From contig JALVEE010000067.1 of assembly GCA_027008645.1 (NCBI GenBank), forward strand, positions 1-40,066: a DNA stretch of 40,066 bases, written 5' to 3'. The position numbers and the translations under genes are program-made. The notes under the pieces were generated by a model. That model did no database searches and was not told where the DNA came from. It was given only the letters and a program-made list of their open reading frames with translations. This DNA is from Saprospiraceae bacterium. GTDB taxonomy: Bacteria; Bacteroidota; Bacteroidia; Chitinophagales; Saprospiraceae. Positions 2,570 to 26,800 of the stretch are shown here, piece by piece (position 1 is the first letter of the stretch; each line of letters starts with the position of its first letter).

Positions 2570-2617
2570 TTTAGTTTTTGTTTTTTTTTTTTTGTAAAAA
2601 ATTATAAAGTCTATGTC

Positions 2618-5600
2618 CTATTTTAAAATAACTAGTTTTTCAAACTTACTTTCTTTTGTAATATTGTATTCTTGTGAAAAAACTTTTATTTTGTAAAGAT
2701 AAATTCCGTTTGCTAACTTACTGCCATAGTCATCAGTTCCATCCCATGATATATCCGATATTTCAAAGCCGGGGGAGAAAGTACTGTATTTTATGGTTTT
2801 TACAACTTTTCCTGATAATGTGAAAATATTGATTATAATGTCTAAATCACTATCTGCCAAATCGTGTTCAAATCTAAAATTAGTTTGTGTTGTAAAGGGA
2901 TTAGGATAGTTCAAGACATGTGAAAGTTCTGTTTTTGATTTATCCAAAACTACAAATTCAATTAATTTTTCGCTTTTATTATTGAAAATATCATAAGCTG
3001 TAACTTTTATAGTATGCTTTCCGGGTTTTAATTTTGACAAAGGATATCTGAAACTACCTTTTTTATAGGAATTTACATCGGATTTGTAAAAATCATTCAA
3101 AATGAATTTATCATCGATATCTTTGTCCATTTCCCCTGAAAGTTCATGCCCGATACTTGAGCTGGAAATATTGATTCCGCTCTCATCTGAAAGATATCCC
3201 AATAATACGGGAGAAGAATTTGTAATACCTCCATATGCAAAACCAATATCATTCATATAAAGGTCGATTTCCGGTCCTTCTTTATCAACGACCACATTGC
3301 CGGAAGTACCGCCGATAGAAAAACCTGTGTAATATCCGGCTGCTTGTTCCAATTTGTCATCTATGGCATAATAGCTTAACTTTCCCCTGCCGTATTGGTA
3401 ATTTATATCTTTTGGCAGGATAAAGGAAATTTCAAATTCTCCATTATTGACCTTGGCAAGACCTTTAAATAAAATATTTTTTTGAATTGTAAATTTGTAT
3501 TTACTAGCTTGGTGGTCATTGTTATTGGTCATTCTCTCAGATGGTTTGTCATATAGTGTGACATTTATTTTGCCATTGAAATCATTCTTTATCTTTCCTG
3601 AATTGTCTGCGATATATCCTTTGATTGTAACTTTATCTAAAGCACTAAGAGTATCAATAATGTCAGTAGAATCAACAGGGATGTTATTTATGCTCTGAGT
3701 GACAACCTTATATTTAGGAAATTTCATGCTTAAAGACGGGTCACCAAATAATAAAAATTTTCGTTTGTTTTCTACGCTACTAGAAGTTGTATTTTTCGAT
3801 AATTTAATAATTTCTCCAATTGGCAAATGTTTTGATTCGTCATCCTTGAAGAAAGCATCAAAGGTGGATTTCATCAATTTGTCATTACTAGAGGAATAAA
3901 CAGCCCTTACAGTTGAAAATAGCCCTATAACACCGCCTTTTTTCTTCAAAAAAGCTATCTCCCCTGCGGTATTATATTTAGGGTCATCAAACCCTGTGAA
4001 AGAGCAGGTTGCTGTTATTAGCAATGGAAGTTTGTTTTTGTTTTCCCAATTTAATATATCATTTGTTTGAAGTACTCGCTCTTGAGCCAAGCCTTTTGGC
4101 CCGCCGTGTCCTACATAGACAAACATCAGATGACCTGAATAAAAACTCAAGTTTATCGCTTTTGTAGCATCAGGATAGCGTTGTCCTCCCGCATTATTCT
4201 CTTGAATATACGAATCAAGATATATTTTGTTAATATTGAATACAGGGTATTTCTTGCTTATATTAGTATTTATCTTTTCAGCACCAAAAAAATGCGTTGA
4301 ATCCCAACTGGCATCAATGTCATCAGCAGAAAGCGTAATATTATTTACCCAATCACCATATTGATTGATGTCAGTTTCATAGTCTTTGATTTTTTGAACA
4401 AAAATCTTTGCCTGCTCAATATTTCTCACAGGAAACCTACCGATTGCGATATCCACTTTGCCACTTAGTCTATTTGTACCTTCTCCGTATGAGAGCAAGC
4501 CAAAATAGTCGTCTGAAGGAAATGAAAATATAGGATCCAATGATTTTTTTGTTTCATATACAGGTATAAAATTATCGGTTTTCCTCATGCGTCCTCTGGC
4601 ATCAAAAGATCCGTCTCCAAACAAAAGTAAATAATTGAATTTATCATTTTTTACTTTTAGCATTCTCGCAAAATCCCTGATTGCTGTCGGATCCCATTTT
4701 CCGCATGAAAACTCGTTGAATACTTTTTGCAGTTCAATAGCGTAAGTTTTTATTCCGGAATGTTCTTCCCTGTATGTAGCAAATTCCAAAGCAGACTTTT
4801 CAAACTCTTTGGGGTAAACTACAAGCATTTCAGCATCCAATATGCCATGTATGTTTTGGTTTTCGATTTCTGTTGATTTCCCGGGAGTTAAAAAATCGCC
4901 TGTTTTATCAAAGGCTATAAATCGTGACGATTCCCCTGAATCATACACAATAGTATTATTGTCTTTTGATATATCGATACTTTTGACATTATTGTGATCG
5001 GTTATATCCCAAACCATAGTATTGGTATTTGTTCCTTCGATTTTAATGCCTGCCATTGTGTTATTTGGAGCATATTTGTCAGAAATCATCATTTGTTTGC
5101 CTTGAAATTTTGCCGGCATTCTAGAGTTCAAAATGATTTTATCCAGCCATCCTTTTTCACCTTGATATTTGATCTTAATACTTACTCTATCCTTGGCGGG
5201 TATGAAATTTTCTTTAATTGTTTTTGTATTTGCATAAATGGATTCAGGATCTGATATACTTACTCCACTGATTGTACTGTCAAATATAGCATTGCTTGTA
5301 GATAATGTCAGCTTTTTGCTATTGTCATCTCTGCCTGCAAAAACCATGTTTATATCTACACCTTCACTTTTGTCGAAAATAAAATCCTTGAAATAACTCG
5401 AAAAATCTTTTTCCGATCCGTTGGAAATAAATTCGCCATACCAGTCTTGTCCCGAGCCTTCGGTTTTATTATAACTACCGAGTAAATTGACCAAATCTTC
5501 TTCGTGTACGGCGTAAGAATCAATATTGTTTGAGATATATGCAGGTGAGTTATGGTTTGTCACTGGCTCTATGCGCAATCCTCTTGTATCTGATAATTTG

Positions 5601-6058
5601 ATATAATAATAGTTGTGGTCAGAGTAAATATTTTTTTTGTAATACCAATTTTTAGTAGCATTATTAAAGCTCCATTTGTCCTGTCCCTCTCCATAGAATA
5701 ATATATAATCAGATTGGTCAAATTTTTCATCCGCTTCACCTTCAATATAAATGGGAACTTCAACAAGGTCGTCCATATAATCATCGGTGATTAATTGGGG
5801 GAGCATTCCTCCGCCATTACCATATAACTTAATGTTTTTTGGATTAATAGATTCCAAATTCAGACCCATATCTTTGAGATAACTGTACGGGATTTTATAA
5901 ATTCCATCTTTACTGACTTCTATTTTGTATATTTTACCATCGCCTAAAACTGAATTATCGGTATATTTAGGAGATCTAAATCTAATGCTATCCGGGTCGG
6001 TTTGTGCTATCGAGTAAACACTAAAAAATATAATGAAAATAAATAATGATTTTTTCAT
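2618..6058 (-). CDS. porU: T9SS sortase PorU (C25 peptidase)
   Basis: PorU is the cell-surface sortase of the type IX system. It removes the C-terminal sorting domain of cargo and links the cargo to A-LPS. The product is about 1146 residues. It has a signal peptide ending I-A-Q, a long beta-rich N-terminal region, and a gingipain-type C25 catalytic domain. The catalytic pair is visible as His651 in V-Y-V-G-H-G-G and Cys685 in T-A-T-C-S-F, the spacing expected for the family. The tail carries a Y-P-N-P-F motif and an Ig-like fold ending N-G-I-Y-L-Y-K. The frame continues to a TTG at 6064, but the ATG at 6058 starts the signal peptide directly. The gene is followed by porV and is divergent from a PorP/SprF gene, both T9SS components. 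Confidence 0.93.
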   Translation of the reverse strand: MKKSLFIFIIFFSVYSIAQTDPDSIRFRSPKYTDNSVLGDGKIYKIEVSKDGIYKIPYSYLKDMGLNLESINPKNIKLYGNGGGMLPQLITDDYMDDLVEVPIYIEGEADEKFDQSDYILFYGEGQDKWSFNNATKNWYYKKNIYSDHNYYYIKLSDTRGLRIEPVTNHNSPAYISNNIDSYAVHEEDLVNLLGSYNKTEGSGQDWYGEFISNGSEKDFSSYFKDFIFDKSEGVDINMVFAGRDDNSKKLTLSTSNAIFDSTISGVSISDPESIYANTKTIKENFIPAKDRVSIKIKYQGEKGWLDKIILNSRMPAKFQGKQMMISDKYAPNNTMAGIKIEGTNTNTMVWDITDHNNVKSIDISKDNNTIVYDSGESSRFIAFDKTGDFLTPGKSTEIENQNIHGILDAEMLVVYPKEFEKSALEFATYREEHSGIKTYAIELQKVFNEFSCGKWDPTAIRDFARMLKVKNDKFNYLLLFGDGSFDARGRMRKTDNFIPVYETKKSLDPIFSFPSDDYFGLLSYGEGTNRLSGKVDIAIGRFPVRNIEQAKIFVQKIKDYETDINQYGDWVNNITLSADDIDASWDSTHFFGAEKINTNISKKYPVFNINKIYLDSYIQENNAGGQRYPDATKAINLSFYSGHLMFVYVGHGGPKGLAQERVLQTNDILNWENKNKLPLLITATCSFTGFDDPKYNTAGEIAFLKKKGGVIGLFSTVRAVYSSSNDKLMKSTFDAFFKDDESKHLPIGEIIKLSKNTTSSSVENKRKFLLFGDPSLSMKFPKYKVVTQSINNIPVDSTDIIDTLSALDKVTIKGYIADNSGKIKNDFNGKINVTLYDKPSERMTNNNDHQASKYKFTIQKNILFKGLAKVNNGEFEISFILPKDINYQYGRGKLSYYAIDDKLEQAAGYYTGFSIGGTSGNVVVDKEGPEIDLYMNDIGFAYGGITNSSPVLLGYLSDESGINISSSSIGHELSGEMDKDIDDKFILNDFYKSDVNSYKKGSFRYPLSKLKPGKHTIKVTAYDIFNNKSEKLIEFVVLDKSKTELSHVLNYPNPFTTQTNFRFEHDLADSDLDIIINIFTLSGKVVKTIKYSTFSPGFEISDISWDGTDDYGSKLANGIYLYKIKVFSQEYNITKESKFEKLVILK

Positions 6059-6245
6059 ATCCAATGTTTTTCCTAATTTAAAATCAAAAAATAAATCTCA
6101 TGTAATTTTCTAATCAATAGCAATAGTTTTAGGTCGATTTAGATTATAAGGTAAGTTTATGCGTATTTTTTATGCAATTAATATAATTTTTTCACAACTT
6201 CAATGTTAAAGAAACGTTAATAAAATAATTGTATTATAATTTTAT

Positions 6246-7298
6246 GTGTTTTTCTCTAATTGGATTTTTGATTTGAATAGATTTAAAAAAATATTGTTGT
6301 TTATTGCTTTTATTATAGGAAATGGAAGTTTCACGTATATTATATCTCAAGATCCTGTCTTTACACAGTTCTATAATGCCCCTTTGCAGATAAATCCCGC
6401 TTTTGCCGGTAATACTTATGCCCCAATGGTTCATTTAAATACTAGATTGGAATGGCCTGCAATCGGCTTAGCTTATAATACTTACTCTTTTTCCGTAGAT
6501 AGATTCTTTCATGATTATAATTTTGGTTCGGGATTATTGATTACTATGGACAATAGTGGAAATGGTATATACAAAAGATTCAGGGCAGAAGGAGTTTTTT
6601 CGTACAGATTAAAAATTAGAGACAAGAGATACATGAAAATGGGACTTAGTTTAGCTTATGGACAAAATACACTGGATTGGCAAAAATTGGTTTTTGGAGA
6701 TGAGATTGATCCCAGGTATGGATATGTCTTGCCTGACGGCACAAAACTGCCTACAGGAGAGGTTCAGCCGGATGATTTAACCGTAGGTTATTTGGATATA
6801 TCGGCAGGGATTTTATTTTATTCAAAAGAATTATATTTTGGAATAGCCGTAAAACACGCCAATACACCTGTGGATTATTATAATAACAAACAAAATACCG
6901 TTAATGCCGGATTACCTGTTAGAGTTACAGCACAAATTGGTGGAGAATTTGACATGTTTCCAAATTATGGTGGGGAAAGAAAATATTATACACCTAGCTT
7001 GTTATTTGCAGGTCAATCGGGATTATATCAGATAGTTTTTGATAATCATATTGATTTGGGCGCGATTTTTGCAGGTATTGGATACAGGTGGAATATTGTT
7101 AATTCGGATGCTGTATTGTTCTCAGTAGGTATGAGTAAGGAAATGTTTAAAATATCATACAGTTTCGATTATACTGTTTCCAAACTCGGTATTGGATCAG
7201 GAGGCAGTCATGAGGTGGGAGTATCGATAAATTTTGATAAATCGACCTTGTTTAAAGCTCCTTATAGATATAGCGATTGTTTTAATATGTTTAGATAA
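6246..7298 (+). CDS. PorP/SprF-family outer-membrane protein
   Basis: PorP/SprF proteins are outer-membrane barrels of T9SS. Some support the motor, and others partner with a particular secreted adhesin. The family opening is clear: S-Q-D-P-V-F-T-Q-F-Y-N-A-P-L-Q-I-N-P-A-F-A-G in pieces around residues 34-55, then a barrel of about 300 residues. No ATG exists in this frame, because a stop lies at 6237-6239. I list the GTG at 6246 as start. A TTG at 6273 would give a tidier signal peptide (L-N-R-F-K-K-I-L-L-F), so the true start is uncertain. Many paralogs exist per genome, and no adhesin gene is adjacent, so I give no symbol. It is divergent from porU and followed by gldJ. Confidence 0.88.
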   Translation: MFFSNWIFDLNRFKKILLFIAFIIGNGSFTYIISQDPVFTQFYNAPLQINPAFAGNTYAPMVHLNTRLEWPAIGLAYNTYSFSVDRFFHDYNFGSGLLITMDNSGNGIYKRFRAEGVFSYRLKIRDKRYMKMGLSLAYGQNTLDWQKLVFGDEIDPRYGYVLPDGTKLPTGEVQPDDLTVGYLDISAGILFYSKELYFGIAVKHANTPVDYYNNKQNTVNAGLPVRVTAQIGGEFDMFPNYGGERKYYTPSLLFAGQSGLYQIVFDNHIDLGAIFAGIGYRWNIVNSDAVLFSVGMSKEMFKISYSFDYTVSKLGIGSGGSHEVGVSINFDKSTLFKAPYRYSDCFNMFR

Positions 7299-7319
7299 TA
7301 AAAAATAAATGCTCGAAGA

Positions 7320-7352
7320 TTTGTATAGTTGATTTATTTTTTTTTAACTTTG
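7320..7352 (+). promoter_or_regulatory. Putative promoter upstream of gldJ
   Basis: TTTG at 7320-7323 and TAACTTTG at 7345-7352 are separated by 21 bases, matching the Bacteroidota -33/-7 pattern. The leader to the gldJ ATG would be about 170 bases, which is long, so another promoter closer to the gene cannot be excluded. Confidence 0.45.
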
Positions 7353-7527
7353 GCTGCTCAAATGAAGAATACTTGTTTTAAAGTGAAAATATTTGTGTAT
7401 TTTTCATGATAGATGCAATATAATATTGTAATTATTGTTATCTATTTGCGACGAATTTTAATTGTTTTAACTATTTCTCGATATTTACATTATTTAGTGT
7501 AATATCAATAACAAAATTAATTAACAG

Positions 7528-9021
7528 ATGAAAATGTTTAGTAAAATTTTAGGAACTCTACTTCTTTTTACCTTGATCGTCTCTTCTTGTAAACACGAAG
7601 AGCGTTCTGAGACCACAGGTTGGAAATACAACGATCCGGAATGGGGAGGATTTGAGAAAATTGATTATAAAGGACAAGTTACAGCTCCAAATTTAGTATT
7701 GATTGAAGGAGGTACTTTTGTGATGGGACAGGTAGATGAAGACGTGATGTATGAATGGAATAATATGCCGAGAAGAGTTACTGTTTCCTCATTTTATATG
7801 GATGAAACAGAAGTGTCCAACATTGCTTATAGAGAATATTTGCATTGGTTGCACAGAGTTTATAAAACATACCCTGAAGTATATAAAAAAGCTCTACCTG
7901 ATACATTGGTTTGGAGAGAGGAATTGGCATTTAATGATGAATATGTTGAAAATTACTTGAGATCCCCCGCTTTCAATGATTATCCTGTTGTTGGAGTGAG
8001 CTGGGTTCAAGCAAGAGATTATTCCAAATGGAGGTCAAATGTGACTAACGAAATGTTTTTGATTGAAAGAGGTATCTTGAATCCCAATCCACAACAAGTG
8101 GATTCTGATGCATTTGATACCAAGGCTTATTTCGCAGGTCAATATCAAGGAAATGTGAGAAAGAACCTTGAAGATTTGACAAATGGAGGAGAAAGACCCG
8201 CGAGAAAAGAGGATGGGATAACAACACCGGACTATAGATTGCCTACAGAAGCAGAATGGGAATATGCAGCTTTGGCCTTAGTGGGAAATCAGGCTCCATC
8301 AAAAGACGAAATATATACCGATAGAAAATATTTTCCTTGGAATGGTTATACTGCGAGACACAAAAGACACGATAAACATCAAGGAGAATTTTTGGCTAAC
8401 TTCAGACGAGCCGGTGGAGATTATATGGGTATGGCAGGACGCCTTAACGACAAGGCTGCAATAACCGCACCTGTTAGATCCTTTTGGCCTAATGATTTCG
8501 GATTGTACAATATGGCAGGTAATGTAAGTGAATGGGTGGCTGATGTATATAGACAGACTACATTTACAGATTTGAGTGATGCACAAAATCAAGAATTGAA
8601 TCCATATAGAGGTAATAGATTTGAAGAGTATGTCAAGGATGAGAATGGTAATTATGTTGAAAAAGATAGTTTGGGACATTTGAAGAAAAGATTTGTTGAG
8701 GATGAAGAAGTGAAAAATAGGGATAACTATCGAAAAGCTGATTTGAGAAATTATAATGATGATGATAGCGAATTTGTAACTTATGGTTATGGAAAAAGTT
8801 CTTTGGTAAACGATCACTCAAGAGTTTATAAAGGAGGTTCATGGGAGGATAGACTTTATTGGTTATCACCTGCTCAAAGAAGATTTATGGACGAAAACAA
8901 ATCCAGTCGTTCGATCGGATTTAGATGTGCTATGACAAGATTAGGGGCACAAGCCGGAAATGGTGATGCTGATGGAAATTATTTTGGTAAAGCACCAAAG
9001 GTAAGGAGAAAGTATAAATAA
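7528..9021 (+). CDS. gldJ: Gliding/T9SS lipoprotein GldJ (FGE-sulfatase fold)
   Basis: GldJ is an outer-membrane lipoprotein needed for gliding and for stable T9SS function in Flavobacterium. It resembles the formylglycine-generating enzyme fold but is thought to be structural. The 497-residue product has a lipobox V-S-S-C with the lipidated Cys at residue 21. It then has the GldJ-like T-G-W-K-Y-N-D segment and a SUMF1 domain beginning L-V-L-I-E-G-G-T-F-V-M-G near residue 57. Other typical pieces are Y-M-D-E-T-E-V-S-N, A-L-P-D-T-L-V-W-R and the end motif S-I-G-F-R-C-A-M. The closest alternative is GldK, but the P-D-T-L-V-W-R and D-V-M-Y-E-W-N-N segments favour GldJ. It sits near porU/porV, as in other gliders, and ends at a strong terminator. 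Confidence 0.88.
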   Translation: MKMFSKILGTLLLFTLIVSSCKHEERSETTGWKYNDPEWGGFEKIDYKGQVTAPNLVLIEGGTFVMGQVDEDVMYEWNNMPRRVTVSSFYMDETEVSNIAYREYLHWLHRVYKTYPEVYKKALPDTLVWREELAFNDEYVENYLRSPAFNDYPVVGVSWVQARDYSKWRSNVTNEMFLIERGILNPNPQQVDSDAFDTKAYFAGQYQGNVRKNLEDLTNGGERPARKEDGITTPDYRLPTEAEWEYAALALVGNQAPSKDEIYTDRKYFPWNGYTARHKRHDKHQGEFLANFRRAGGDYMGMAGRLNDKAAITAPVRSFWPNDFGLYNMAGNVSEWVADVYRQTTFTDLSDAQNQELNPYRGNRFEEYVKDENGNYVEKDSLGHLKKRFVEDEEVKNRDNYRKADLRNYNDDDSEFVTYGYGKSSLVNDHSRVYKGGSWEDRLYWLSPAQRRFMDENKSSRSIGFRCAMTRLGAQAGNGDADGNYFGKAPKVRRKYK

Positions 9022-9042
9022 TGAATATTTGTAAATTTTTAT

Positions 9043-9077
9043 AGAGGCTGTTCGTTTTCGGACAGCCTCTTTTTTTA
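9043..9077 (+). terminator. Rho-independent terminator of gldJ
   Basis: AGAGGCTGT at 9043-9051 pairs perfectly with ACAGCCTCT at 9062-9070, followed by a run of T. It lies 21 bases after the gldJ stop codon. Confidence 0.85.
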
Positions 9078-9301
9078 TGATGATTTCAGAAAAAAATGAA
9101 ATGCTGCTCCCTTATAAAGTATAGATACTGATAAAAATATATTTTCAGTTTTGCAGCGAATTGGATTTTATTTGCGTCTAAATAAAAAAAAGATATTTTT
9201 CTATTGCATTTTAGAAAAAAATTGATTATACGAAATTATTTTTTAAAAATCAATGTTATTAATTACGATACTTAATTAATCTCTGATAATATCTATTTAA
9301 T

Positions 9302-10159
9302 ATGCGTCAGCTTAAGATTGAAAATAAAATAACCAATAGGGAAAATCAGTCGCTCGACAGATATCTTAGTGATATTAGTAAGATTGATTTATTGCTTCCT
9401 GAAGAGGAGGCTGCTTTAGCTGCCAGGATACGAGAAGGAGATGAAGAGGCTTTGGAAAAATTGACCAAGTCTAATTTGAGATTCGTAGTTTCTGTTGCCA
9501 AACAATACCAAAACCAAGGACTGTCTTTGAGTGACTTGATAAATGAAGGTAATGTCGGTTTGATGAAAGCAGCCAAAAGGTTTGATGAAACAAAGGGATT
9601 TAAGTTTATATCATATGCTGTTTGGTGGATAAGACAATCTATACTTCAAGCAATAGTTGAATATTCGAGGATAGTAAGGCTACCGGTTAATAAAGCCACA
9701 ATGTACAACAGAGTTCAAAAGGCTTTAGCTTCATTTATCCAAGAATATGAAAGGAGACCGAGCAATGAAGAGTTGGCAGAGATGATGGAAGTTTCACCGG
9801 AAGAAATAAAAAAAATCCTTTCTCTTGGTACTAATCAAGTATCATTTGATGCTCCTATTTCAAATGAGGATAGTGATACGACTATGATAGATATTTTCGT
9901 GAATAAAGATTATAAACATACTGATGAAGAATTGTTGTTGGAATCAGTATCGATTGATATCCTCTCAAGTCTTTCTGTTTTGAGTCTCAGGGAAAAAGAG
10001 ATTCTCAAAGATTATTTTGGCTTGGACGGAAGACCTGAGCTGAATTTGGAAGAAATATCAGAAAAAATCGGACTGACACGCGAAAGAGTGAGGCAAGTAA
10101 AAGAAAGAGCACTCCGCCGCTTGCGTAAATCCTATAATAGAAATATTTACAAAAGATAG
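9302..10159 (+). CDS. rpoD: Primary RNA polymerase sigma factor RpoD/SigA
   Basis: This is the housekeeping sigma-70 factor that directs RNA polymerase to -33/-7 promoters. At 285 residues it is the compact Bacteroidota form that lacks region 1.1. Region 1.2 shows S-L-D-R-Y-L-S-D-I, region 2 shows L-I-N-E-G-N-V-G-L-M-K-A-A-K-R-F-D and Y-A-V-W-W-I-R-Q-S-I, region 3 contains R-R-P-S-N-E-E-L-A, and region 4 ends with T-R-E-R-V-R-Q-V-K-E-R-A-L-R-R-L-R. The ATG at 9302 is the only sensible start. The 140 bases before it are very AT-rich, with no exact TAnnTTTG match. The gene runs tail to tail into porX, with only 5 bases between the stop codons. Confidence 0.95.
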   Translation: MRQLKIENKITNRENQSLDRYLSDISKIDLLLPEEEAALAARIREGDEEALEKLTKSNLRFVVSVAKQYQNQGLSLSDLINEGNVGLMKAAKRFDETKGFKFISYAVWWIRQSILQAIVEYSRIVRLPVNKATMYNRVQKALASFIQEYERRPSNEELAEMMEVSPEEIKKILSLGTNQVSFDAPISNEDSDTTMIDIFVNKDYKHTDEELLLESVSIDILSSLSVLSLREKEILKDYFGLDGRPELNLEEISEKIGLTRERVRQVKERALRRLRKSYNRNIYKR

Positions 10160-10164
10160 AAACC

Positions 10165-11721
10165 TTATCTTGGTCTTAATGTGATTACCGGACATATTAT
10201 TTCTTCCATAGATATACCACCATGCTGGAACGTGTCATTGTACAATCTGTTATAATAATTGTAATTATTTGGGTACAGGAAATAAATATCCTCTTTTGCA
10301 AATATATACCTTGTGCTTACATTGGGTCTTGGTAGCCCCACTTTCTCAGGTTTGTCTATAAGGAAAACATCTTTTTGATTGAACTGAATGTTTTTTCCCA
10401 TTTTATACCTCAAATTTGTGGTTGTATTTTTGTCTCCGATTACTTTAGAAGGAGTTTTTACCCTTATTGTACCGTGGTCGGTTGTTATTATGACTTTTAC
10501 ATTTTTCGTACTAAGGTATTCCAAGGTTTGATATAAAGGAGAGTTTTTAAACCAAGACAGTGCAAGAGAGCGATATGCTTTTTCGTCACTGGCCAATGCT
10601 TTTAAAACATCCATTTCTGTCCTCGCGTGTGATAACATATCAATAAAATTATATACCAAAACAGTCAAGTCATAATTCAAGATATTACTTGCATTGTCAA
10701 GAACTTGTTTGGCGGATTTGGTATTTAGTATTTTTGCATACTGAACCTTTACATCTTTTCTGAACTTTCTCTTTATTTGTTCATTGAGCAAATCTTCTTC
10801 ATGATTGTTTTTTCCACCATCTTCAAAATCATTTACCCACCAATCCGGATACAGTCTGTCTATATCATAAGGTGTTAGTCCTGAAAAAATTGCATTCCTG
10901 CTATATTGGGTTGTGGTTGGCAGGATACTGAAAAAAGCATCTTCGCTTTCTTTGATAAAATATTTCAAAACAAGAGGTTCGAATACTTTCCATTGGTCAA
11001 ATCTGAGATTGTCCAAAAGAATCATGACTGTCGGTGTGTCGTTTTTTATTTTTGGAAATACAAATTTACTCATCAATTCATGTGACAGTACAGGTTTATT
11101 ATCCTCTGAGTTGTGCCAATCGTAATAATTTTTTGATATAAATTTAGAAAACTCGGCATTGGCTTGATTTTTTTGCATTGATAGTATATCCGCCATTTCG
11201 CTTATATCGCTGTGATCCAACTTCAGTTCCCATTTGATCAATTGCAGATACGTCTCAATCCATTCGTCATATTTAAGTCCGCTACCTATTTTCATAATTA
11301 TATCCCTGAATTCTTGCTGGTATTCAGAAGTTGTTTTTTCACGAACCAATCTGTGATTGTCGATTATTTTTTTTAAACTAAGGAGTATTTGATTAGGGTT
11401 AACAGGCTTAATCAGATAATCGTCGATTTGAGAGCCAATGGCTTCTTCCATGATATTTTCCGCTTCGTTTTTTGTAATCATAACAACAGGGACAATAGGT
11501 CTGATTTCTTTTATCTTGCTCAATGTTTCCAGTCCTGTTAAACCCGGCATTGATTCATCTAAGAATATTATATCTATTTGGTCATCATTTTTGATTATTT
11601 CCAATGCGTCATAGCCATTGCTGACAGATTCTACTTCGTAACCTTTTTTATTTAGGAAGAATAATTGTGGCTTTAAAGTTTCTATTTCATCATCCACCCA
11701 TAATATTTTTATACTACTCAT
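10165..11721 (-). CDS. porX: T9SS response regulator PorX (REC-PglZ)
   Basis: PorX is the response regulator of the PorX-PorY system, which controls type IX secretion genes. In Porphyromonas it works with the ECF sigma factor SigP, and its PglZ domain has been reported to be a zinc phosphodiesterase acting on oligonucleotides. The 518-residue product starts with a receiver domain: acidic pair Asp10-Asp11, phospho-acceptor Asp55 in F-L-D-E-S-M-P-G, Thr83, Lys105. A helical linker follows, then a PglZ/alkaline-phosphatase-like domain with L-L-D-N-L-R-F-D, S-I-L-P-T-T-T-Q-Y-S, I-T-T-D-H-G-T and a final H-G-G-I-S-M-E-E. No DNA-binding domain is present, as expected. No porY kinase or sigP is in the window. 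Its location near porU/porV/gldJ supports the call. Confidence 0.93.
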   Translation of the reverse strand: MSSIKILWVDDEIETLKPQLFFLNKKGYEVESVSNGYDALEIIKNDDQIDIIFLDESMPGLTGLETLSKIKEIRPIVPVVMITKNEAENIMEEAIGSQIDDYLIKPVNPNQILLSLKKIIDNHRLVREKTTSEYQQEFRDIIMKIGSGLKYDEWIETYLQLIKWELKLDHSDISEMADILSMQKNQANAEFSKFISKNYYDWHNSEDNKPVLSHELMSKFVFPKIKNDTPTVMILLDNLRFDQWKVFEPLVLKYFIKESEDAFFSILPTTTQYSRNAIFSGLTPYDIDRLYPDWWVNDFEDGGKNNHEEDLLNEQIKRKFRKDVKVQYAKILNTKSAKQVLDNASNILNYDLTVLVYNFIDMLSHARTEMDVLKALASDEKAYRSLALSWFKNSPLYQTLEYLSTKNVKVIITTDHGTIRVKTPSKVIGDKNTTTNLRYKMGKNIQFNQKDVFLIDKPEKVGLPRPNVSTRYIFAKEDIYFLYPNNYNYYNRLYNDTFQHGGISMEEIICPVITLRPR

Positions 11722-11792: not shown

Positions 11793-12983
11793 ATGAAAAA
11801 AAAGAAAATTTTTAATGACCCTTTGTATGGTTTAATCGGGTTTGATCATGAGATTATTTACAAACTAATTGATCATCCGTATTTCCAAAGGTTGAGGAGG
11901 ATTAAACAGATGGGGCTCTCGGATTATATTTATCCCGGAGCTGTTCATACGCGTTTTCAGCATAGCTTGGGAGCATTGTACTTGATGAAAAAGAGTATTG
12001 AGTCTCTCAAATGGAAAGGAGTCAAGATCAGCGATGAGGAATATAAGGCAGTGAGTATCGCTATCTTGCTGCACGATATCGGACATGGACCTTTTTCTCA
12101 TGCATTGGAAGGTATATTTATCTCGATTGGACACGAAGAGATAACCCTTAAAATAATGGAGAAGCTGAATGTTGAGTTTGGAGGCGAATTGGGTCTGGCA
12201 ATAGATATATTTAGGGATAAGTATCCTCGAAAGTTTTTTAAGCAGCTTATCTCCGGACAACTCGATGTTGATAGATTGGATTATCTTACAAGAGATAGTT
12301 TTTATACGGGAGTTGCAGAGGGGGTGATTGGGTATGACAGGATTATTGCTATGTTGAATGTAGTAGATGATAAGCTTGTAGTCGAAGAAAAAGCTATTTA
12401 TTCAATAGAGAAGTTTTTAGTCGCACGAAAAATTATGTATTGGCAGGTTTATTTGCACAAAACATCCTTATCTGCTGAAAATATGATTTATCATCTATTC
12501 GACTATATAATTAATGAAGCGGGGAATATGGATAAATCGTCATTGCCATTGTCATTGCAAAGAATAATAGCAGAAAATAATGTTGATAGACAATTGGAAT
12601 ATTTTATTAAATTGGATGACTCCGATATATTATATGCGATAAAAAATTTAATGGATTCCGGAGATTCATTTGTTAGTTTTATGTCAAATGGACTAATAAA
12701 AAGACAACTTTTAAAAATTTTGTTAAAAAATGTTAAAATAAATAGTGACTACTTAGAATCGATACGTCTTAATGTTGAAAAAAGATATAGATTTAACAAA
12801 AATGTGCTTAAAAGGCTGGTGTTTACGGGGGAAGTGTCAAATGAGTCATATAGTGAAAAACAAGACGAAATCGAATTTTTACTGAAATCAGGCGATACTA
12901 TTAAATTAAGTGAATTTGCCCCAATGACATCATATAGTTCAAAAAGTGTTAAATATTTTGTTTTGTTTCCTGAATATGCTTAA
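11793..12983 (+). CDS. HD-domain phosphohydrolase (dNTPase-like, COG1078)
   Basis: This is a metal-dependent HD-superfamily phosphohydrolase related to deoxynucleoside triphosphate triphosphohydrolases. The exact substrate of this bacterial branch is not settled. In the 396-residue product the metal ligands are visible: H-T-R-F-Q-H at 52-57, the HD pair at 94-95 in L-L-H-D-I-G-H-G-P-F-S-H, and D-V-D-R-L-D-Y at 158-164. The typical opening D-P-L-Y-G and F-Q-R-L-R-R-I-K-Q-M is also present. The frame extends to a TTG at 11772, but the ATG at 11793 matches the family start. It is divergent from porX across about 70 bases. Its stop codon overlaps the -7 box of the next gene, so the two are probably separate transcripts. 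Confidence 0.88.
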   Translation: MKKKKIFNDPLYGLIGFDHEIIYKLIDHPYFQRLRRIKQMGLSDYIYPGAVHTRFQHSLGALYLMKKSIESLKWKGVKISDEEYKAVSIAILLHDIGHGPFSHALEGIFISIGHEEITLKIMEKLNVEFGGELGLAIDIFRDKYPRKFFKQLISGQLDVDRLDYLTRDSFYTGVAEGVIGYDRIIAMLNVVDDKLVVEEKAIYSIEKFLVARKIMYWQVYLHKTSLSAENMIYHLFDYIINEAGNMDKSSLPLSLQRIIAENNVDRQLEYFIKLDDSDILYAIKNLMDSGDSFVSFMSNGLIKRQLLKILLKNVKINSDYLESIRLNVEKRYRFNKNVLKRLVFTGEVSNESYSEKQDEIEFLLKSGDTIKLSEFAPMTSYSSKSVKYFVLFPEYA

Positions 12984-12988
12984 TTTTG
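12957..12988 (+). promoter_or_regulatory. Promoter of the PGBD repeat-protein gene
   Basis: TTTG at 12957-12960 and TAATTTTG at 12981-12988 with a 20-base spacer are an excellent match to the Bacteroidota consensus. The -7 box lies on the stop codon of the HD gene. The predicted leader is about 48 bases. Confidence 0.6.
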
Positions 12989-13042: not shown

Positions 13043-14299
13043 ATGAAAAAAATGAATTTACTTTTATCTGTTGCGTTTATGTTGATGGCATTTGTGTCAT
13101 TTGCTCAACCGGGCGCAGACTTAAAAAACCCTGAGTCAGGAAAATGTTATGCTAAATGTTTGATTCCTGCAAAGTATGAAACAGTATCTGTTCCAGTTGT
13201 AATTAGAGAAGCTTCAATGAAGGTTAATATTTCGCCTGCTACATTTGCTTCTGCATCTGAGCAAATATTGGCGAAAGAAGGAGCTAAAGCTTATTCAGCT
13301 ACTTCAGCTACTTTCGAAACAGCAAGTAAAAGCTTGTTGAAAAAAGATGGCTACAAAGTATTAACAGTAGTTCCTGCTAAATTTGAAACTCAATCTGAGC
13401 AAGAATTAGTACAAGAGGCTTATAAGATTGCAAGAGTTATTCCTGCAACTTATAAAACAGAATCATTCCAATTAATGGTTAAGCCTGCTTATACTACTTA
13501 TCAAAAGAAGCCTGCTCAATACAGAACAGAGACAGAAACAATAGAAACTGTACCTGCAAGTACCAAGTGGGTTAAGAAAAAATCAAAAGACAACTGTTTG
13601 TCTGCTGACCCAAGCGACTGTATGATCTGGTGTTTGGTTGAAGTACCTGCTCAATACAGAACTATAACTAAAAGTGTAAGAGTTGGATGTGAAGACGGAT
13701 GGATGCAAAAAGGAGACGACTGTGTAAAGGCTGTAAAAGTTGACGCGGTTTATAAGTCTTATACAAAGAAAGTTGTAGATCAACCTGCAAGAGTTGAATA
13801 TACAGATGTTCCTGCTAAGTATAAAACAAGAACTTGGCAAAAGCTTGTTTCTGATGCGAGAGTTGAAGAAAGAACTGTTGCACCTGTTTATGAAGATTGG
13901 AAATATAAGAAGTTGGCTGCCGATGCCGGAGCAACTGAAAGTATGATTCCTGAGAAGATGGTTACAAGAACCTACAAAACTTTGGCTAACGATGCTACAT
14001 TGACAGAATCAACTATTCCTGAGAAAGTGATTAACGTTTCTAAGAGAAACTTGGTTAGCGCAGGTGGATTTACAGAGGAGTGGAGAGAAGTTGTATGTCA
14101 AGCTGACGTTACTCCTAGATTGATTGCTCAAGTACAAAGAGCGTTGATTGCAAGAGGATACAATGTAGGTGCTGCCGGAGCTGACAATGTGTTTGGTAGA
14201 GCTACAAAAGATGCTTTGATCAAATTCCAAAAAGCTGAAGGATTACCTGTTGGAAATCTTGACTTCGAAACATTGAAAGCATTAGGTATTAAGCAATAA
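13043..14299 (+). CDS. Secreted repeat protein with C-terminal PGBD domain
   Basis: This 418-residue envelope protein probably anchors to peptidoglycan, but its role is unknown. A signal peptide ends V-S-F-A-Q near residue 22. A long region follows of degenerate units of about 20-25 residues with the theme V-P-A-x-Y-x-T-x-(S/T), and eight cysteines in pairs (G-K-C-Y-A-K-C, D-N-C, S-D-C-M-I-W-C, G-C-E-D-G-W, D-D-C-V, V-V-C-Q) that could form disulfides. The last 65 residues are a peptidoglycan-binding PGBD fold (L-I-A-Q-V-Q-R-A-L-I-A-R-G-Y, F-G-R-A-T-K-D-A-L, F-Q-K-A-E-G-L). The frame opens at a TTG at 13037, but the ATG at 13043 starts the signal peptide. The next gene is a close paralog with a different end domain. 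It has its own promoter and terminator. Confidence 0.85.
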   Translation: MKKMNLLLSVAFMLMAFVSFAQPGADLKNPESGKCYAKCLIPAKYETVSVPVVIREASMKVNISPATFASASEQILAKEGAKAYSATSATFETASKSLLKKDGYKVLTVVPAKFETQSEQELVQEAYKIARVIPATYKTESFQLMVKPAYTTYQKKPAQYRTETETIETVPASTKWVKKKSKDNCLSADPSDCMIWCLVEVPAQYRTITKSVRVGCEDGWMQKGDDCVKAVKVDAVYKSYTKKVVDQPARVEYTDVPAKYKTRTWQKLVSDARVEERTVAPVYEDWKYKKLAADAGATESMIPEKMVTRTYKTLANDATLTESTIPEKVINVSKRNLVSAGGFTEEWREVVCQADVTPRLIAQVQRALIARGYNVGAAGADNVFGRATKDALIKFQKAEGLPVGNLDFETLKALGIKQ

Positions 14300-14327
14300 T
14301 TTATTGACTTTATGTTGTGAAATAATT

Positions 14328-14362
14328 GAGGCTCTTTTCTTTTGGGAAAGAGTCTCTTTTTT
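14328..14362 (+). terminator. Terminator of the PGBD repeat-protein gene
   Basis: A 12-pair stem with two G-T pairs (14328-14339 with 14345-14356) is followed by a T-run. It separates the two paralogs into independent transcripts. Confidence 0.8.
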
Positions 14363-14421
14363 GGAAATATTATTGATTAAATGCTCTAAAAGGAGGAAAA
14401 ATAAAATACATTCCAATAAAT

Positions 14422-14453
14422 TTTGTGTATTCCAAATATATTATTTAACTTTG
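14422..14453 (+). promoter_or_regulatory. Promoter of the OmpA-tailed paralog
   Basis: TTTG at 14422-14425 and TAACTTTG at 14446-14453 are 20 bases apart, the same spacing as in the promoter of the first paralog. The predicted leader to the ATG at 14490 is about 30 bases. The last bases before both ATGs are also alike (AAAATCA, then TGATT before ATG). Confidence 0.6.
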
Positions 14454-14489
14454 AACAAATTATTCTTTTAAATAAAAATCAGCCTGATT

Positions 14490-14544
14490 ATGAAAAAAAT
14501 CACAACTTTATTAACCGTATCCCTCGTATTTATGGCGAATTTTG
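14490..14544 (+). other. Signal-peptide coding stretch, out of frame with its gene
   Basis: From the ATG at 14490 the reading is M-K-K-I-T-T-L-L-T-V-S-L-V-F-M-A-N-F, a signal-peptide start. It then runs out of frame with the following mature protein. Removing one T from the four at 14540-14543 joins it to L-S-F-A-Q-P-G and gives a complete signal peptide with cleavage after S-F-A, exactly as in the upstream paralog. So there is a one-base insertion here, either a real mutation, a sequence error or, least likely, programmed slippage. Indels in the earlier A-run do not repair it, because that frame meets a stop. Confidence 0.8.
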
Positions 14545-15906
14545 TCATTCGCACAACCGGGACCGGATTTAACGAATCCTCAAGCAGGAAAATGTTATGC
14601 TAAATGTTTGATTCCTGCAAAAATCGAAACAATATCAGTACCAGTAACTATTAGGGAAGCATCTTCAAGAGTAAATATTACTCCCGCTACTTTTGCTTCC
14701 GCATCAGAAAAAATATTGGCAAAAGAAGGAGCTAAGGCTTATTCTGCTACATCAGCAACATTTGAGACTGCCAGCAAAAGCGTTTTGTCAAAAGAGGGGT
14801 ATAAAGTATTAACAGTAGTTCCCGCTAAATTTGAGACTCAGTCCGAGCAACAAATGGTGCAAGAGGCTTATAAAATTGCAAGAGTTATTCCTGCAACTTA
14901 TAAAACAGAATCATTCCAATTAATGGTTAAGCCTGCTTATACTACTTACCAAAAGAAACCTGCTCAATATAGAACTGAGACAGAAACAATTGAAACAGTA
15001 CCTGCAAGTACTAAGTGGGTCAAGAAAAAATCAGGTGACAATTGTTTGTCCGCCGATCCTAGTGACTGTATGATCTGGTGTTTGGTTGAAGTGCCTGCTC
15101 AATATCGAACTGTCACAAAAAGTGTAAGAGTAGGATGTGAAGACGGTTGGATGCAAAAAGGAGATGACTGTGTTAAGGCAGTAAAAGTTGATGCGGTTTA
15201 CAAAACTTATACAAAGAAAATCGTTGATCAACCTGCAAGAGTCGAATATACCGATGTTCCCGCTAAATATAAAACAAGAACTTGGCAAAAACTTGTTTCC
15301 GAGGCAAGAGTTGAAGAAAGAGCTGTCGCTCCCGTGTATAAAGATTGGAAATATAAGAAGTTGGCTACCGATGCCGGAGCAACTGAAAGTATGATTCCTG
15401 AAAAAATGGTTACAAGAACTTATAAAACTTTAGCCAGTGATGCATCGCTTACCGAAACTCCGGTTGATGCAAAAGTTATTAATATCACAAAAACTAATAC
15501 AGTAAGTCCTGAAGGATTTACCGTACAATGGAAAGAAATTAAATGTGAGCTTGTAGAATACAATCCACTACCAATTAACTGGAATCTTAATAGTGCTACC
15601 TTGACAAGAGGAGCAAAACAAATAATTGATTCAAGATTGTTGCCATTGTTGAAAACCGGCGTAACTGTCGAATTGGCTTCACATACAGATTCAAGAGGTT
15701 CTGATTCTTTTAATCAAGATTTGTCTGATAGAAGAGCTAATGCCGTGAGGACTTATTTGATCTCAAAAGGAATCAATCCTAACCAATTAATTGCAAAAGG
15801 ATATGGAGAGACAAGATTGAAGAACAGATGCTCCAATGGCGTACAATGTACAGAGCAAGAGCATTTGGTAAACAGGCGTACAGAATTTAGAGTGATTAAT
15901 AGATAA
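14542..15906 (+). CDS. Repeat protein with C-terminal OmpA domain (5' frameshift)
   Basis: This is a tandem paralog of the gene at 13043. It shares the same repeat region (V-P-A-x-Y-x-T units and the same eight cysteines) over about 330 residues, but ends in an OmpA/MotB-type peptidoglycan-binding domain instead of PGBD. The OmpA part shows A-S-H-T-D-S-R-G, L-S-D-R-R-A-N-A-V, L-I-S-K-G-I, G-Y-G-E and N-R-R-T-E-F-R-V, plus a Cys pair in N-R-C-S-N-G-V-Q-C. OmpA domains bind the diaminopimelate of peptidoglycan, so this should be a periplasmic or outer-membrane anchor. The open frame begins at a TTG at 14542, but that would lack most of the signal peptide. The intended start is the ATG at 14490, cut off by a one-base frameshift. 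It ends at a good terminator. Confidence 0.85.
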   Translation: MSFAQPGPDLTNPQAGKCYAKCLIPAKIETISVPVTIREASSRVNITPATFASASEKILAKEGAKAYSATSATFETASKSVLSKEGYKVLTVVPAKFETQSEQQMVQEAYKIARVIPATYKTESFQLMVKPAYTTYQKKPAQYRTETETIETVPASTKWVKKKSGDNCLSADPSDCMIWCLVEVPAQYRTVTKSVRVGCEDGWMQKGDDCVKAVKVDAVYKTYTKKIVDQPARVEYTDVPAKYKTRTWQKLVSEARVEERAVAPVYKDWKYKKLATDAGATESMIPEKMVTRTYKTLASDASLTETPVDAKVINITKTNTVSPEGFTVQWKEIKCELVEYNPLPINWNLNSATLTRGAKQIIDSRLLPLLKTGVTVELASHTDSRGSDSFNQDLSDRRANAVRTYLISKGINPNQLIAKGYGETRLKNRCSNGVQCTEQEHLVNRRTEFRVINR

Positions 15907-15936: not shown

Positions 15937-15967
15937 AAGCCTCTTCATTTTGAAGGGGCTTTTTTTG
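15937..15967 (+). terminator. Terminator of the OmpA-tailed gene
   Basis: AAGCCTCTTC at 15937-15946 pairs with GAAGGGGCTT at 15952-15961 (one G-T pair) and is followed by T7. Confidence 0.85.
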
Positions 15968-23838: not shown

Positions 23839-26800
23839 ATGAAAAAATTATTACTATTTTTGTTTTTTGCATTCTTTGCATTAAGTTGGCAGGTGGATGC
23901 GCAGGTAACGATTGGCACTGAAACAGCAACTGATCAAGGATTACCAATTGAGCCATATTTTGGCTATTCTTATTCTCAAGTTATTTATCTCCAATCTGAA
24001 ATTGGAGCATCAGGAGATATTACAACACTCACGTGGGATTTTGCAGGTAATTCCATTTCCAGTTCAAATGATTGGACTGTATATATCGGCCACACTACAA
24101 AAACGGAATTTGCTTCTGTGTCTGATTGGGTAGATGTTTCGACATTGACACAAGTTTTTTCAGGAACGGTTACTGTAGATGCAAATGATAAGGTTGTTGT
24201 AGATATTACTGATTTTACATACAACAATACAGACAATCTTATTATTGCAGTTGATGAAAATGCATCCGGATACAATGGAAGCGGTGATGATTTCTATTGT
24301 AGTTCTGTCTCTAGTTTCAGAGGCTTGGAGTTTCATAGCGATAGTAATAATCCAGACCCTACGAGTCCTCCAGATGGGAATTTGAAAGGATACATTGCTA
24401 ATATTGTTTTAGGAGGTATTGCTCAATCTTGCCCTGCCCCATCAGACTTGACAGTAACAAATGAAACAACATCCGGTGCGGATCTTGGATGGACAGAGAA
24501 CGGTTCTTCAATACATTGGGATTTAGAAATTGGAACTACAGGATTTACTCCAACCGGTACCCCTACTGATGATGATGTAACCACAAATCCATATACTTGG
24601 TCAGGGGGTAATGCTGCAACAACTTATGATTATTATGTAAGAGCAGATTGTGGTGCTGACAATTCAGATGTTAGTGGATGGGTTGGCCCTTATACTTTTA
24701 CTACTTTGTGTAATGCATTTACTGCAACATACTCTGAAAATTTTGATGCCGTTTCAACTCCTGATTTGCCGTTATGTTGGTCAAAAATTGTTGATGCTAC
24801 TTCTACTTATGCAGCAGTTGAAACAACAACAACGAATAACTCAGCACCAAACGGTGCGAGATTGTACAATTCAAGTGATAATGCTGCAACTTTACTATTG
24901 ATTACACCGGAATTTAGTGATTTAACTTCGCAAGCTAACCAAATTAGATTTTATGCTAGAGGAAATGGATATGATTTAATAATAGGTACAATGTCAGATC
25001 CAAGTGATCAAAGTACTTTTACTTCTTTCACTACATTGACTTTAACTTCATCATTTGAGGAATATACCGTAAGTTTTAGCACTTATACAGGTTCTGACAC
25101 ATATATTGCCTTTAAACATGGTTTAGGTGGAACATATAGAACTATATATATTGATGATTTTAATTATGAACCTATACCTGCTTGCCCCTCTCCATCATCA
25201 CAAGCAGAATCCAATATGACAGCAACAACTGTGGATTTGAGTTGGCAAGAAAACGGTACTGCAAGTTCTTGGGATATTGAATTAGGGACAACCGGTTTTT
25301 CACCTACAGGTACACCAACTCAATCCGGTGTTACAAATCCATATACTTATGGTGGTTTAACTGCCAATACAACTTATGATTGGTATGTAAGAGCAGATTG
25401 TGGTGGTGGAAGCTATTCTAATTGGGTAGGTCCTCATACATTTACGTTAGTTCCTCCTCCCGCTAATGATGATTGTGACGGAGCATATATGCTTACTGTT
25501 AATAGTGATTTGAATTGTGGAAGTACGACTAATGGTACTGTGGAAGGAGCAACACAGTCTCCGGAAGATGCTTCTGCATGTGGCGGTACTGAAGATGATG
25601 ATGTCTGGTTTAAGTTTGTGGCAACAGCAACAGAACATAAAATCGAATTGTTGAATGCTGCAGGTTCTACAACTGATCTTTATCATTCAGTTTGGGAAGG
25701 TACATGTCCCGGAGGGCTTACATTAGTCTCGGGTACTTGCAGTGATCCTAATTCACAAACAGTATCTGGTCTTACAATAGGAAATACTTATTTTATCAGA
25801 GTTTATACATGGACATCTACCGGAGGTCAAAATACTACTTTTGATGTTTGTGTCGGTACTCCTCCTCAACCACCTGCTAATGATGATTGCTCAGGAGCTA
25901 TTGCACTTACAGTTGGTAATCCTGGGGATTGTCCGACAAATCAGGTGACAACAGATGCAACTTCAGCTACTGCCGATGGAAATACAAGTTGTGATAATTC
26001 GGGGGAGAATATTGGTGTATGGTATTCATTTGTTGCCCCTGCTACCGGTGAAGTTGTTGTGAATTATACAGCAGGAACTGCAACCGGAAATCCGGGTATA
26101 ACAATATTTGATGCTTGTGGTGGGGCAGAAGTTGCCGGAACATGTCAAGATAATCCTGCTACTTTAAGTAACATTACAGGCTTGACAGGAGGTACTACCT
26201 ATTATATGCTTTTATGGTTTGACGGTGCATCAGCTGCAGGTTCATTTGATATATGTTTGGAAGATGTCGGTGCTTGTCCAAAGCCGTCCGGACAAACAGA
26301 ATCAAACATTACTGCTACTTCAGCGGATCTCGATTGGACGGAAAACGGTACAGCTACTACTTGGGATATTGAATTAGGAGCTAACGGATTTGCACCAACG
26401 GGAACACCTACTAAAATGGGTGTAACAAAACCTTATAAATATGATAATTTAACAGCAAATACTTCTTACGATTGGTATGTGAGAGCAGATTGTGGAGCTG
26501 GTTCACAATCAGTATGGGAAGGTCCTCATACATTCACGACATCTCCTCCACCTCCTGCAAATGATATGCTTTGTAATGCTATCGCACTTACAGTTGATGC
26601 AGCACCTGCTACTTATACAAATACCAGTTCTACAGGTGAGACCGGTGAACCTAACGGTAGTTGTTGGTATGGTACAACTACAATGGAGTCTGTATGGTTT
26701 TCATTTGTAGCTCCTAATACAGGTAGTGTGGAAGTAACCACTGATTTTGATACTCCTCTTAATGATACACATATTGCAATATATGAAGTTGGTGATTGTA

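Follow-up and report, generated by a model that had tools for sequence, protein, structure and literature searches.

Two adjacent genes on the forward strand of a 40,066-nucleotide stretch of DNA from a Saprospiraceae bacterium (contig JALVEE010000067.1 of assembly GCA_027008645.1, positions 1 to 40,066; the whole stretch is referred to here as the window) encode proteins, A and B, that share a body (87% identity) and end in different wall-binding domains. We conclude that this body is likely a β-hairpin rod of variable length, antiparallel and in register, with the peptidoglycan-binding domain at its base; evolution supports the hairpin structure well, and prediction supports it moderately. 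Pairing between the two arms of the body is supported by their equal unit numbers, their lock-step changes in length, covariation between them, and AlphaFold models. A preliminary description of the pair had correctly recognized two neighboring genes with one shared body. It had also described cysteine-containing V-P-A-x-Y-x-T repeats; the motif (as V/I-P-A-x-Y-x-T) and the cysteines are present, but the repeats form two arrays of 23-residue units, not one, that flank a centre with three cysteines. What it overlooked is the main feature: two matched arms make up the body.

The order along the chain is an N-cap with two cysteines, a first (N) arm, the three-cysteine centre, a second (C) arm, a C-cap with one cysteine, and the anchor. 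These six cysteines are invariant in an alignment of 32 sequences (A5), and both arms are built from the 23-residue units. Lengths of the N and C arms fall in steps of 23 residues (76/70, 99/93, 122/116, 145/149, 168/170, 214/217, 282/284, and 444/446), and the number of units per arm spans 3 to 22 among 126 proteins. Both A and B have an N arm of 145 residues and a C arm of 149, six units each; their N-cap, centre, and C-cap cysteines together with the equal unit number identify both as paired-arm rods as we define them. In many proteins the extra C-arm residues are a cysteine loop 17 to 18 residues past the centre, which is found in 39 of 101. In the fold we propose, the chain would turn back so that the N arm pairs with the C arm, antiparallel and in register, as one long β-hairpin. 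Each unit would hold two strands, of 12 and then 7 residues, with a kink after each; the three-cysteine centre would form the tip of the rod, and the N-cap and C-cap cysteines would meet at the base beside the anchor. The parts of the two genes lie as follows.

13043–14299, plus strand: gene A, encoding a signal peptide, a rod body (six units in each arm), and a PGBD (peptidoglycan-binding domain) tail
13145–13159, plus strand: gene A N-cap, CYAKC, with Cys 35 and Cys 39, invariant in 32 of 32 A5 sequences
13160–13594, plus strand: gene A N arm, 145 residues in six units of 23
13595–13633, plus strand: gene A centre, Cys 185, 193, and 197 (invariant in A5), predicted tip
13634–14080, plus strand: gene A C arm, 149 residues, six units and the cysteine loop
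13688–13723, plus strand: gene A cysteine loop, Cys 216 to 227, adjoining the centre
14081–14098, plus strand: gene A C-cap, WREVVC, with its Cys invariant in A5
14123–14284, plus strand: gene A PG_binding_1 domain, residues 361–414, by Pfam match
14542–15906, plus strand: gene B open frame, encoding a rod body (six units in each arm) and an OmpA tail
14608–15042, plus strand: gene B N arm, by comparison with gene A
15043–15081, plus strand: gene B centre with three cysteines, by comparison with gene A and A5
15082–15528, plus strand: gene B C arm, by comparison with gene A
15589–15843, plus strand: gene B OmpA domain, residues 350–434 of the open frame

The two arms have the same number of units in 119 of the 126 proteins, all of which carry the three landmarks. 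The seven unequal ones comprise three whose C arm contains an inserted OmpA domain (L008, L114, and L115), one (L099) that has a Gly/Ser insert next to the centre, and three that are off by one unit. Among the 101 of 105 open reading frames (ORFs) with all landmarks (L005, L009, L050, and L101 each miss one; an earlier pass had covered 78 of the 105), the lengths of the N and C arms correlated with r = 0.993. Summed over the 24 distinct length combinations, the difference between the arms was 12.3 units; with the centre placed at random (100,000 placements), it averaged 192 and never fell below 88. We also followed unit number on a FastTree phylogeny of 105 of the 126 proteins (tail length 55–90, no inserted OmpA; midpoint root), built from their constant regions, mapping changes by Fitch parsimony for each arm alone. 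Of 23 branches with a change, 21 changed both arms, 19 of these by an equal amount; two changed the N arm alone (one being the L099 insert), and none changed the C arm alone. The jumps in unit number include 4 to 12, 5 to 9, and 5 to 19. Repeat proteins usually vary the length of one array, and here two arrays around a fixed centre vary together. Joint changes on about 20 reconstructed branches thus provide unusually direct evolutionary evidence of long-range pairing.

Covariation placed the arms in the same register. We analyzed single length classes because pooling had mixed unit positions; these tests supersede the pooled one. In the 4-unit class (47 of 56 sequences after redundancy removal, numbered as in L037), the seven top antidiagonals of 341 were the contiguous sums 231–237, with z up to 5.06, and these peak antidiagonals align cap with cap. 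Twelve of the strongest 40 couplings fell in the band 232–238, where 1.5 were expected, and the band mean of 0.354 standard deviations compares with a mean of 0.005 and a maximum of 0.134 when the partnering of N and C arms was shuffled (60 shuffles). When whole units were paired at five offsets (48 of 57 sequences), the in-register mean z was 1.4 to 2.4 and the off-register mean –0.2 to –0.5. The 7-unit class concurred (1.68 in register versus –0.32, offset 2, n = 17), and our first single-class run (36 of 43 sequences) had given the same register.

Structure prediction with AlphaFold (AF2) gave a mean predicted local distance difference test (pLDDT) score of 68.1 and a predicted TM-score (pTM) of 0.32 for gene A, and 74.6 and 0.37 for a compact member of the family. 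Long and short strands alternate in the models, with 12 and 7 residues in the compact one. Read from the strand list, eight N-arm/C-arm strand pairs of the compact model mirror each other with sums of 231–234; in gene A, ten mirrored pairs lie at 340–341 and two at 331–332 beyond the cysteine loop, the latter as expected if the loop bulges out. In all 16 listed body rows of a VIA-align comparison, the first and last aligned residues sum to 229–237, and most of the partners are long hairpin stems. These include the stems of pore-forming proteins in the PDB, which are alike in shape, each being one long antiparallel ribbon, at Z 2.1–3.9 and with no sequence relation. The body matches are a likeness of shape, not a relationship; the PGBD aligned well (Z up to 10.3). 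A Foldseek search of the body against the PDB gave weak matches from which no fold was assigned (none at E ≤0.001 in one run; best 8.5e-4, with a root-mean-square deviation (rmsd) of 45.6, in another).

Several observations weigh against the hairpin. Three proteins have arms one unit apart, the tree carries no support values, and the domains or loops inserted in the two arms stand at heights that do not match exactly: facing loops in L017, L096, and L097 lie 62–81 and 49–66 residues from the caps, within one unit and too inexact to be used as proof, and the inserts of L008 and of L009/L031, counted by eye, differ in height between the arms. At offset 2, one in-register unit pair of four scored –2.0, and the signal in the 5-unit class was weak. 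AF2 confidence is modest, with parts of both gene A arms (their middle) below pLDDT 50, and the AF2 input alignments overlap those of the covariation test; the VIA-align scores of the body are low (Z 2.1–3.9, rmsd 3.9–35.5). The C arm is more positive than the N arm in 69 of 101 proteins, yet in 25 of 47 in the shortest class; we rejected charge complementarity of the arms, which is an average trend that fails in that class. Finally, two strands forming a ribbon by themselves would be unlikely to make a stable structure, and an oligomer is probably needed. In addition, the best same-arm diagonal was a separation of 23 (z 2.82), as a solenoid would give. This signal and the modest AF2 confidence would also suit two independent β-solenoid or β-meander arms flanking a disulfide knot, with equal lengths arising through a dimer that pairs unlike arms or through symmetric recombination. 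We regard this arrangement as improbable because the antidiagonal band is the stronger signal and because lock-step change on 21 of 23 branches is not expected from independent arms. Of note, a domain swap, in which unlike arms of two chains pair, would produce the same covariation as a hairpin within one chain.

The cysteines fit the hairpin rod with one feature left over at each end. Their number between the caps is even in all 101 proteins (6 in 61, 8 in 33, 10 in 4, and 12 in 3), and with three at the base and three at the tip, one cysteine at each end would have no local partner; a dimer or a chain of rods would give each of these a partner. We infer disulfide bonding from the invariant cysteines, the even counts, and thioredoxin-fold neighbors. 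Thioredoxin-like ORFs were found in 24 of 80 loci with a profile seeded from nine neighbors in these very loci, and 20 of them lie on the same strand as the rod and within two ORFs of it; L046, L051, and L052 count among the 24 and fall outside the 20 because the rod pattern missed them. In a Pfam search of eight neighbors, the six thioredoxin-like ones matched Thioredox_DsbH, Thioredoxin_7, or Thioredoxin_2. Ten such genomes hold 4 to 21 Thioredoxin_7 matches each, so such genes should rarely adjoin the rod by chance. Roughly half of these 24 loci (L033–L045) are alike and may share one origin. The thioredoxin gene lies upstream or downstream of the rod, and on both sides in L041, L042, and L045.

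Loci with a thioredoxin-like gene beside the rod: L033, L034, L036–L046, L052, L056, L065, L083, L085, L091, L092, and L098

The tails identify the base of the rod. As the preliminary description had stated, one gene ends in a PGBD and the other in an OmpA domain: the tail of gene A matched PG_binding_1 (PF01471) at 1.3e-11 (44.9 bits, curated cut-off 23) and that of gene B matched OmpA (PF00691) at 7.9e-15 (55.4 bits, curated cut-off 27.2). PG_binding_1 was matched by 31 of the 32 A5 members (E up to 0.01). The same description had proposed one body with two alternative wall-binding tails, and judged from domain content this appears to hold family-wide. Of the 126 proteins, 106 end in a PGBD alone and 12, including gene B, in OmpA, while three end in a PGBD and have OmpA inserted within the C arm, four have no tail (one of them cut at a contig end), and one protein is truncated. 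In those three (L008, L114, and L115), OmpA sits inside an arm and the PGBD at the end; in L009/L031, judged by eye, there seems to be an OmpA domain in each arm. The families of these tails point to wall binding, and together with the signal peptide of gene A they point to export.

Tandem pairs with swapped tails extend beyond a duplication in one genome, a possibility that the preliminary description had raised against its own proposal. Among five genomes of the same genus (G000–G004), the pair is certain in the window's own genome (G000) and in G002. In G001, an A-like 5′ part and an OmpA tail lie on two contig ends with an identical overlap, representing one or two genes, and G003 and G004 have one OmpA-tailed gene at the locus. 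In G002 (L026, G002:C552), the two bodies are identical across four consecutive 120-column alignment windows and the tails are unrelated; the G000 bodies are 82–94% alike in those four windows. Sorted by pairing, 24 body sites group within genomes, 45 group as orthologs, and 2 group crosswise. On these alignments, the simplest reading would be recent, partial gene conversion of the bodies in G002 with the tails retained. Two rods stand together in 8 of the 80 loci. In L060 and L065, a rod of great length, with about 20 units in each arm, is in tandem with a short one (5 units), and in L039, L041, and L042 the second copy has no tail.

Each gene of the pair in the window has candidate regulatory sites of its own, and gene B has a disturbed start.

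12957–12988, plus strand: Bacteroidota-type promoter-like site of gene A, TTTG-N20-TAnnTTTG
14328–14356, plus strand: terminator-like hairpin after gene A, from a hairpin scan
14422–14453, plus strand: Bacteroidota-type promoter-like site of gene B, TTTG-N20-TAnnTTTG
14490–14541, plus strand: signal-peptide codons of gene B, in a frame that differs from that of the body, from frame reading and comparison with gene A and G002
15937–15961, plus strand: terminator-like hairpin after gene B, from a hairpin scan

A terminator for each gene, as had been claimed, agrees with the two hairpins; the window holds 4 such hairpins versus 1.7 expected. The accompanying claim of a consensus promoter for each gene did not survive: σ70-type sequences, which we discarded as candidates, match the window at chance (11 versus 10.2 expected). 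What lies upstream instead is TTTG-N20-TAnnTTTG, which we take to be the Bacteroidota-type promoter consensus. It occurs 7 times in the window versus 3.0 expected, with at least 7 in 3 of 100 shuffles, and the sites of genes A and B have the same spacer length (N20), each lying just 5′ of its gene. The natural ATG of gene B (14490) runs into stops, and the open frame begins at a TTG (14542). The 14490–14541 region of gene B has one surplus base relative to gene A, leaving its signal peptide not intact in the assembled sequence; gene A has a signal peptide, and the gene B counterpart in the congener G002 is an unbroken 477-amino-acid frame. The frameshift may be an assembly error or a genuine lesion.

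The preliminary description had placed the pair in a surface or periplasmic scaffold tied to the wall in two ways. Two wall-binding tails agree with such a scaffold. Among Pfam matches at E up to 1, the C-terminal T9SS sorting domain (Por_Secre_tail) was not listed for A or B, and neither protein matched any other signal for surface export; wall-binding tails of this kind are known from the periplasm. A surface location is therefore very unlikely, and the periplasm stands as the default.

The neighborhood of the pair could point to a different role, as a component of the type IX secretion (T9SS) or gliding apparatus, for example of the periplasmic track filaments that microscopy has shown, rather than a spacer. 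Upstream of the pair (window 1358–11721) lie genes for PorV, a C25 peptidase with FlgD_ig (PorU-like), PorP/SprF, an FGE-domain protein that is presumably GldJ- or GldK-like, a σ70 factor, and a PorX-like regulator, and an HD hydrolase is also among the upstream genes. The pair is about 11 kb from PorV, past the PorU-like, PorP/SprF, FGE-domain, and PorX-like genes. A separate gene at 23839–28128 encodes a 1429-amino-acid protein in which GBD_T9SS_assoc, fn3, and the T9SS sorting tail Por_Secre_tail were matched. In 11 of 19 genomes, a PglZ (PorX) gene lies at most 3 kb from the rod. Furthermore, Saprospira grandis, which has the rod, shows abundant bundle fibers when osmotically shocked, according to an excerpt of PMC9870892. 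Against this, PorV is near the rod in 1 of 19 genomes, the window's own, and about 43 kb separate PglZ from the rod in S. grandis; the same excerpt associates GldJ with such rails in Flavobacterium johnsoniae. PorV and PglZ matches occur in 25 of 25 genomes checked, so their co-occurrence with the rod is uninformative and does not discriminate. We consider a T9SS or gliding role a fair rival to the spacer proposed below and not a conclusion, and on balance we doubt it.

The rod body is common in Saprospiraceae and Chitinophagales and belongs to a family that is widespread and, it appears, undescribed. Counting the window's own genome, which has two copies (genes A and B), in each case, we found matches in 23 of 40 genomes of relatives, in at least 163 of 396 genomes of the order (some of which may be tail-only because the profile includes the PGBD), and in 30 of 395 genomes of the phylum, 15 of these in the PGBD part only. 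The best 80 of 254 matches in a contig collection were taken as loci, so that the taxonomic spread is incomplete; 79 of the 80 are labeled as Bacteroidota, among them Saprospiraceae, other Chitinophagales, Aureispira, and S. grandis. The remaining contig (L036) is labeled Nitrosomonas; its rod locus is close to Chitinophagales ones, and it is probably mis-binned. Matches on plasmids came from three records, one of them with a body match. This one (L133, plasmid 1 of Methylobacterium bullatum, Alphaproteobacteria) is a 240-amino-acid frame with, by eye, two units per arm and no wall anchor, and it was left out of all counts. A phage origin was rejected: no phage match was found, and the four viral contigs that match do so in the PGBD part only.

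That the body lies outside characterized families, as had been suspected, agrees with our searches. It passed no cut-off in Pfam or NCBIfam (genes A and B, compact members, and A5) and had no match among PDB sequences; PHROGs and PADLOC returned only the tail domains, plus weak matches that were below cut-off or scattered over few members. The motif strings appeared in no paper of the library searched, and a literature search by title and the beginning of the abstract found nothing on the rod family. Known wall-binding proteins with PF01471 or PF00691 thus resemble A and B in their anchors, which score above the cut-offs, and differ in the body, which passes no Pfam cut-off. In NCBIfam, HxsA (TIGR03979) was the best partial match both for gene A and for 35 of 38 compact members, via the PGBD and the stretch preceding it, but gene A scored 38.1 bits versus a cut-off of 121.65 and His-Xaa-Ser repeats were not seen. 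EirA (NF038254) matched weakly over some 35 residues at the three-cysteine centre (gene A residues 165–199, E 0.022), and 18 of 38 compact members show this match as well (best 5.7e-4, below cut-off). Gene A scored 14.2 bits versus a cut-off of 45 and neither arm was matched, and on this resemblance EirA could possibly be a distant relative of the rod centre only. In the libraries searched, such proteins surface only through their wall-binding tail, and the rod escapes annotation.

These data also bear on a plainer account, in which the body is an ordinary wall-associated structural protein, a passive filler or a cysteine-rich redox buffer, and the pair, lacking any special role, arose by recent duplication and the shuffling of tails. 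The possibly broken gene B, the many genomes of the order that are unmatched, and the G002 bodies that look homogenized by gene conversion all suit this account. We find it unlikely, as the lock-step lengths and invariant cysteine caps show strong selection on the architecture.

For the hairpin rod itself, we put forward a role as a tether or spacer in the periplasm, rooted in peptidoglycan, in which the number of units would set the distance of the tip and PGBD and OmpA would act as interchangeable anchors. This role is plausible, though we hold it with distinctly less confidence than the fold. More tentatively still, the rods may represent a new fibrous class, a disulfide-capped β zipper whose matched arrays evolve in lock step and form a molecular ruler, 3 to 22 steps long, on swappable peptidoglycan anchors; the odd cysteine at each end might join rods into covalent dimers or chains for envelope spacing or a periplasmic filament in Saprospiraceae and relatives. 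The arms of SMC proteins offer a parallel from the cytoplasm: they are coiled coils whose equal N- and C-terminal halves pair antiparallel around a hinge. The rod would share the folded-back chain, the equal-length halves, and the middle hinge, and would differ in having predicted β strands of 23-residue units and in being exported and wall anchored. A rod that set such a distance from the wall would work in a way comparable to the outer membrane–peptidoglycan tethers of the Lpp and OmpA/Pal type, as these are described in excerpts of PMC8824477, PMC5736177, and PMC5771553. Unlike the Lpp-type tether, gene A has no lipobox or terminal lysine (its signal peptide ends in SFAQPG and its C terminus is GIKQ), and the rod is a predicted β-hairpin of 3 to 22 units, not a coiled coil.

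The co-change of the arms predicts a rod fold that a single structure could confirm. If the rod is indeed a wall-rooted spacer, the natural series of 3 to 22 units would be a ready set for learning how Bacteroidota set the spacing of their envelope.

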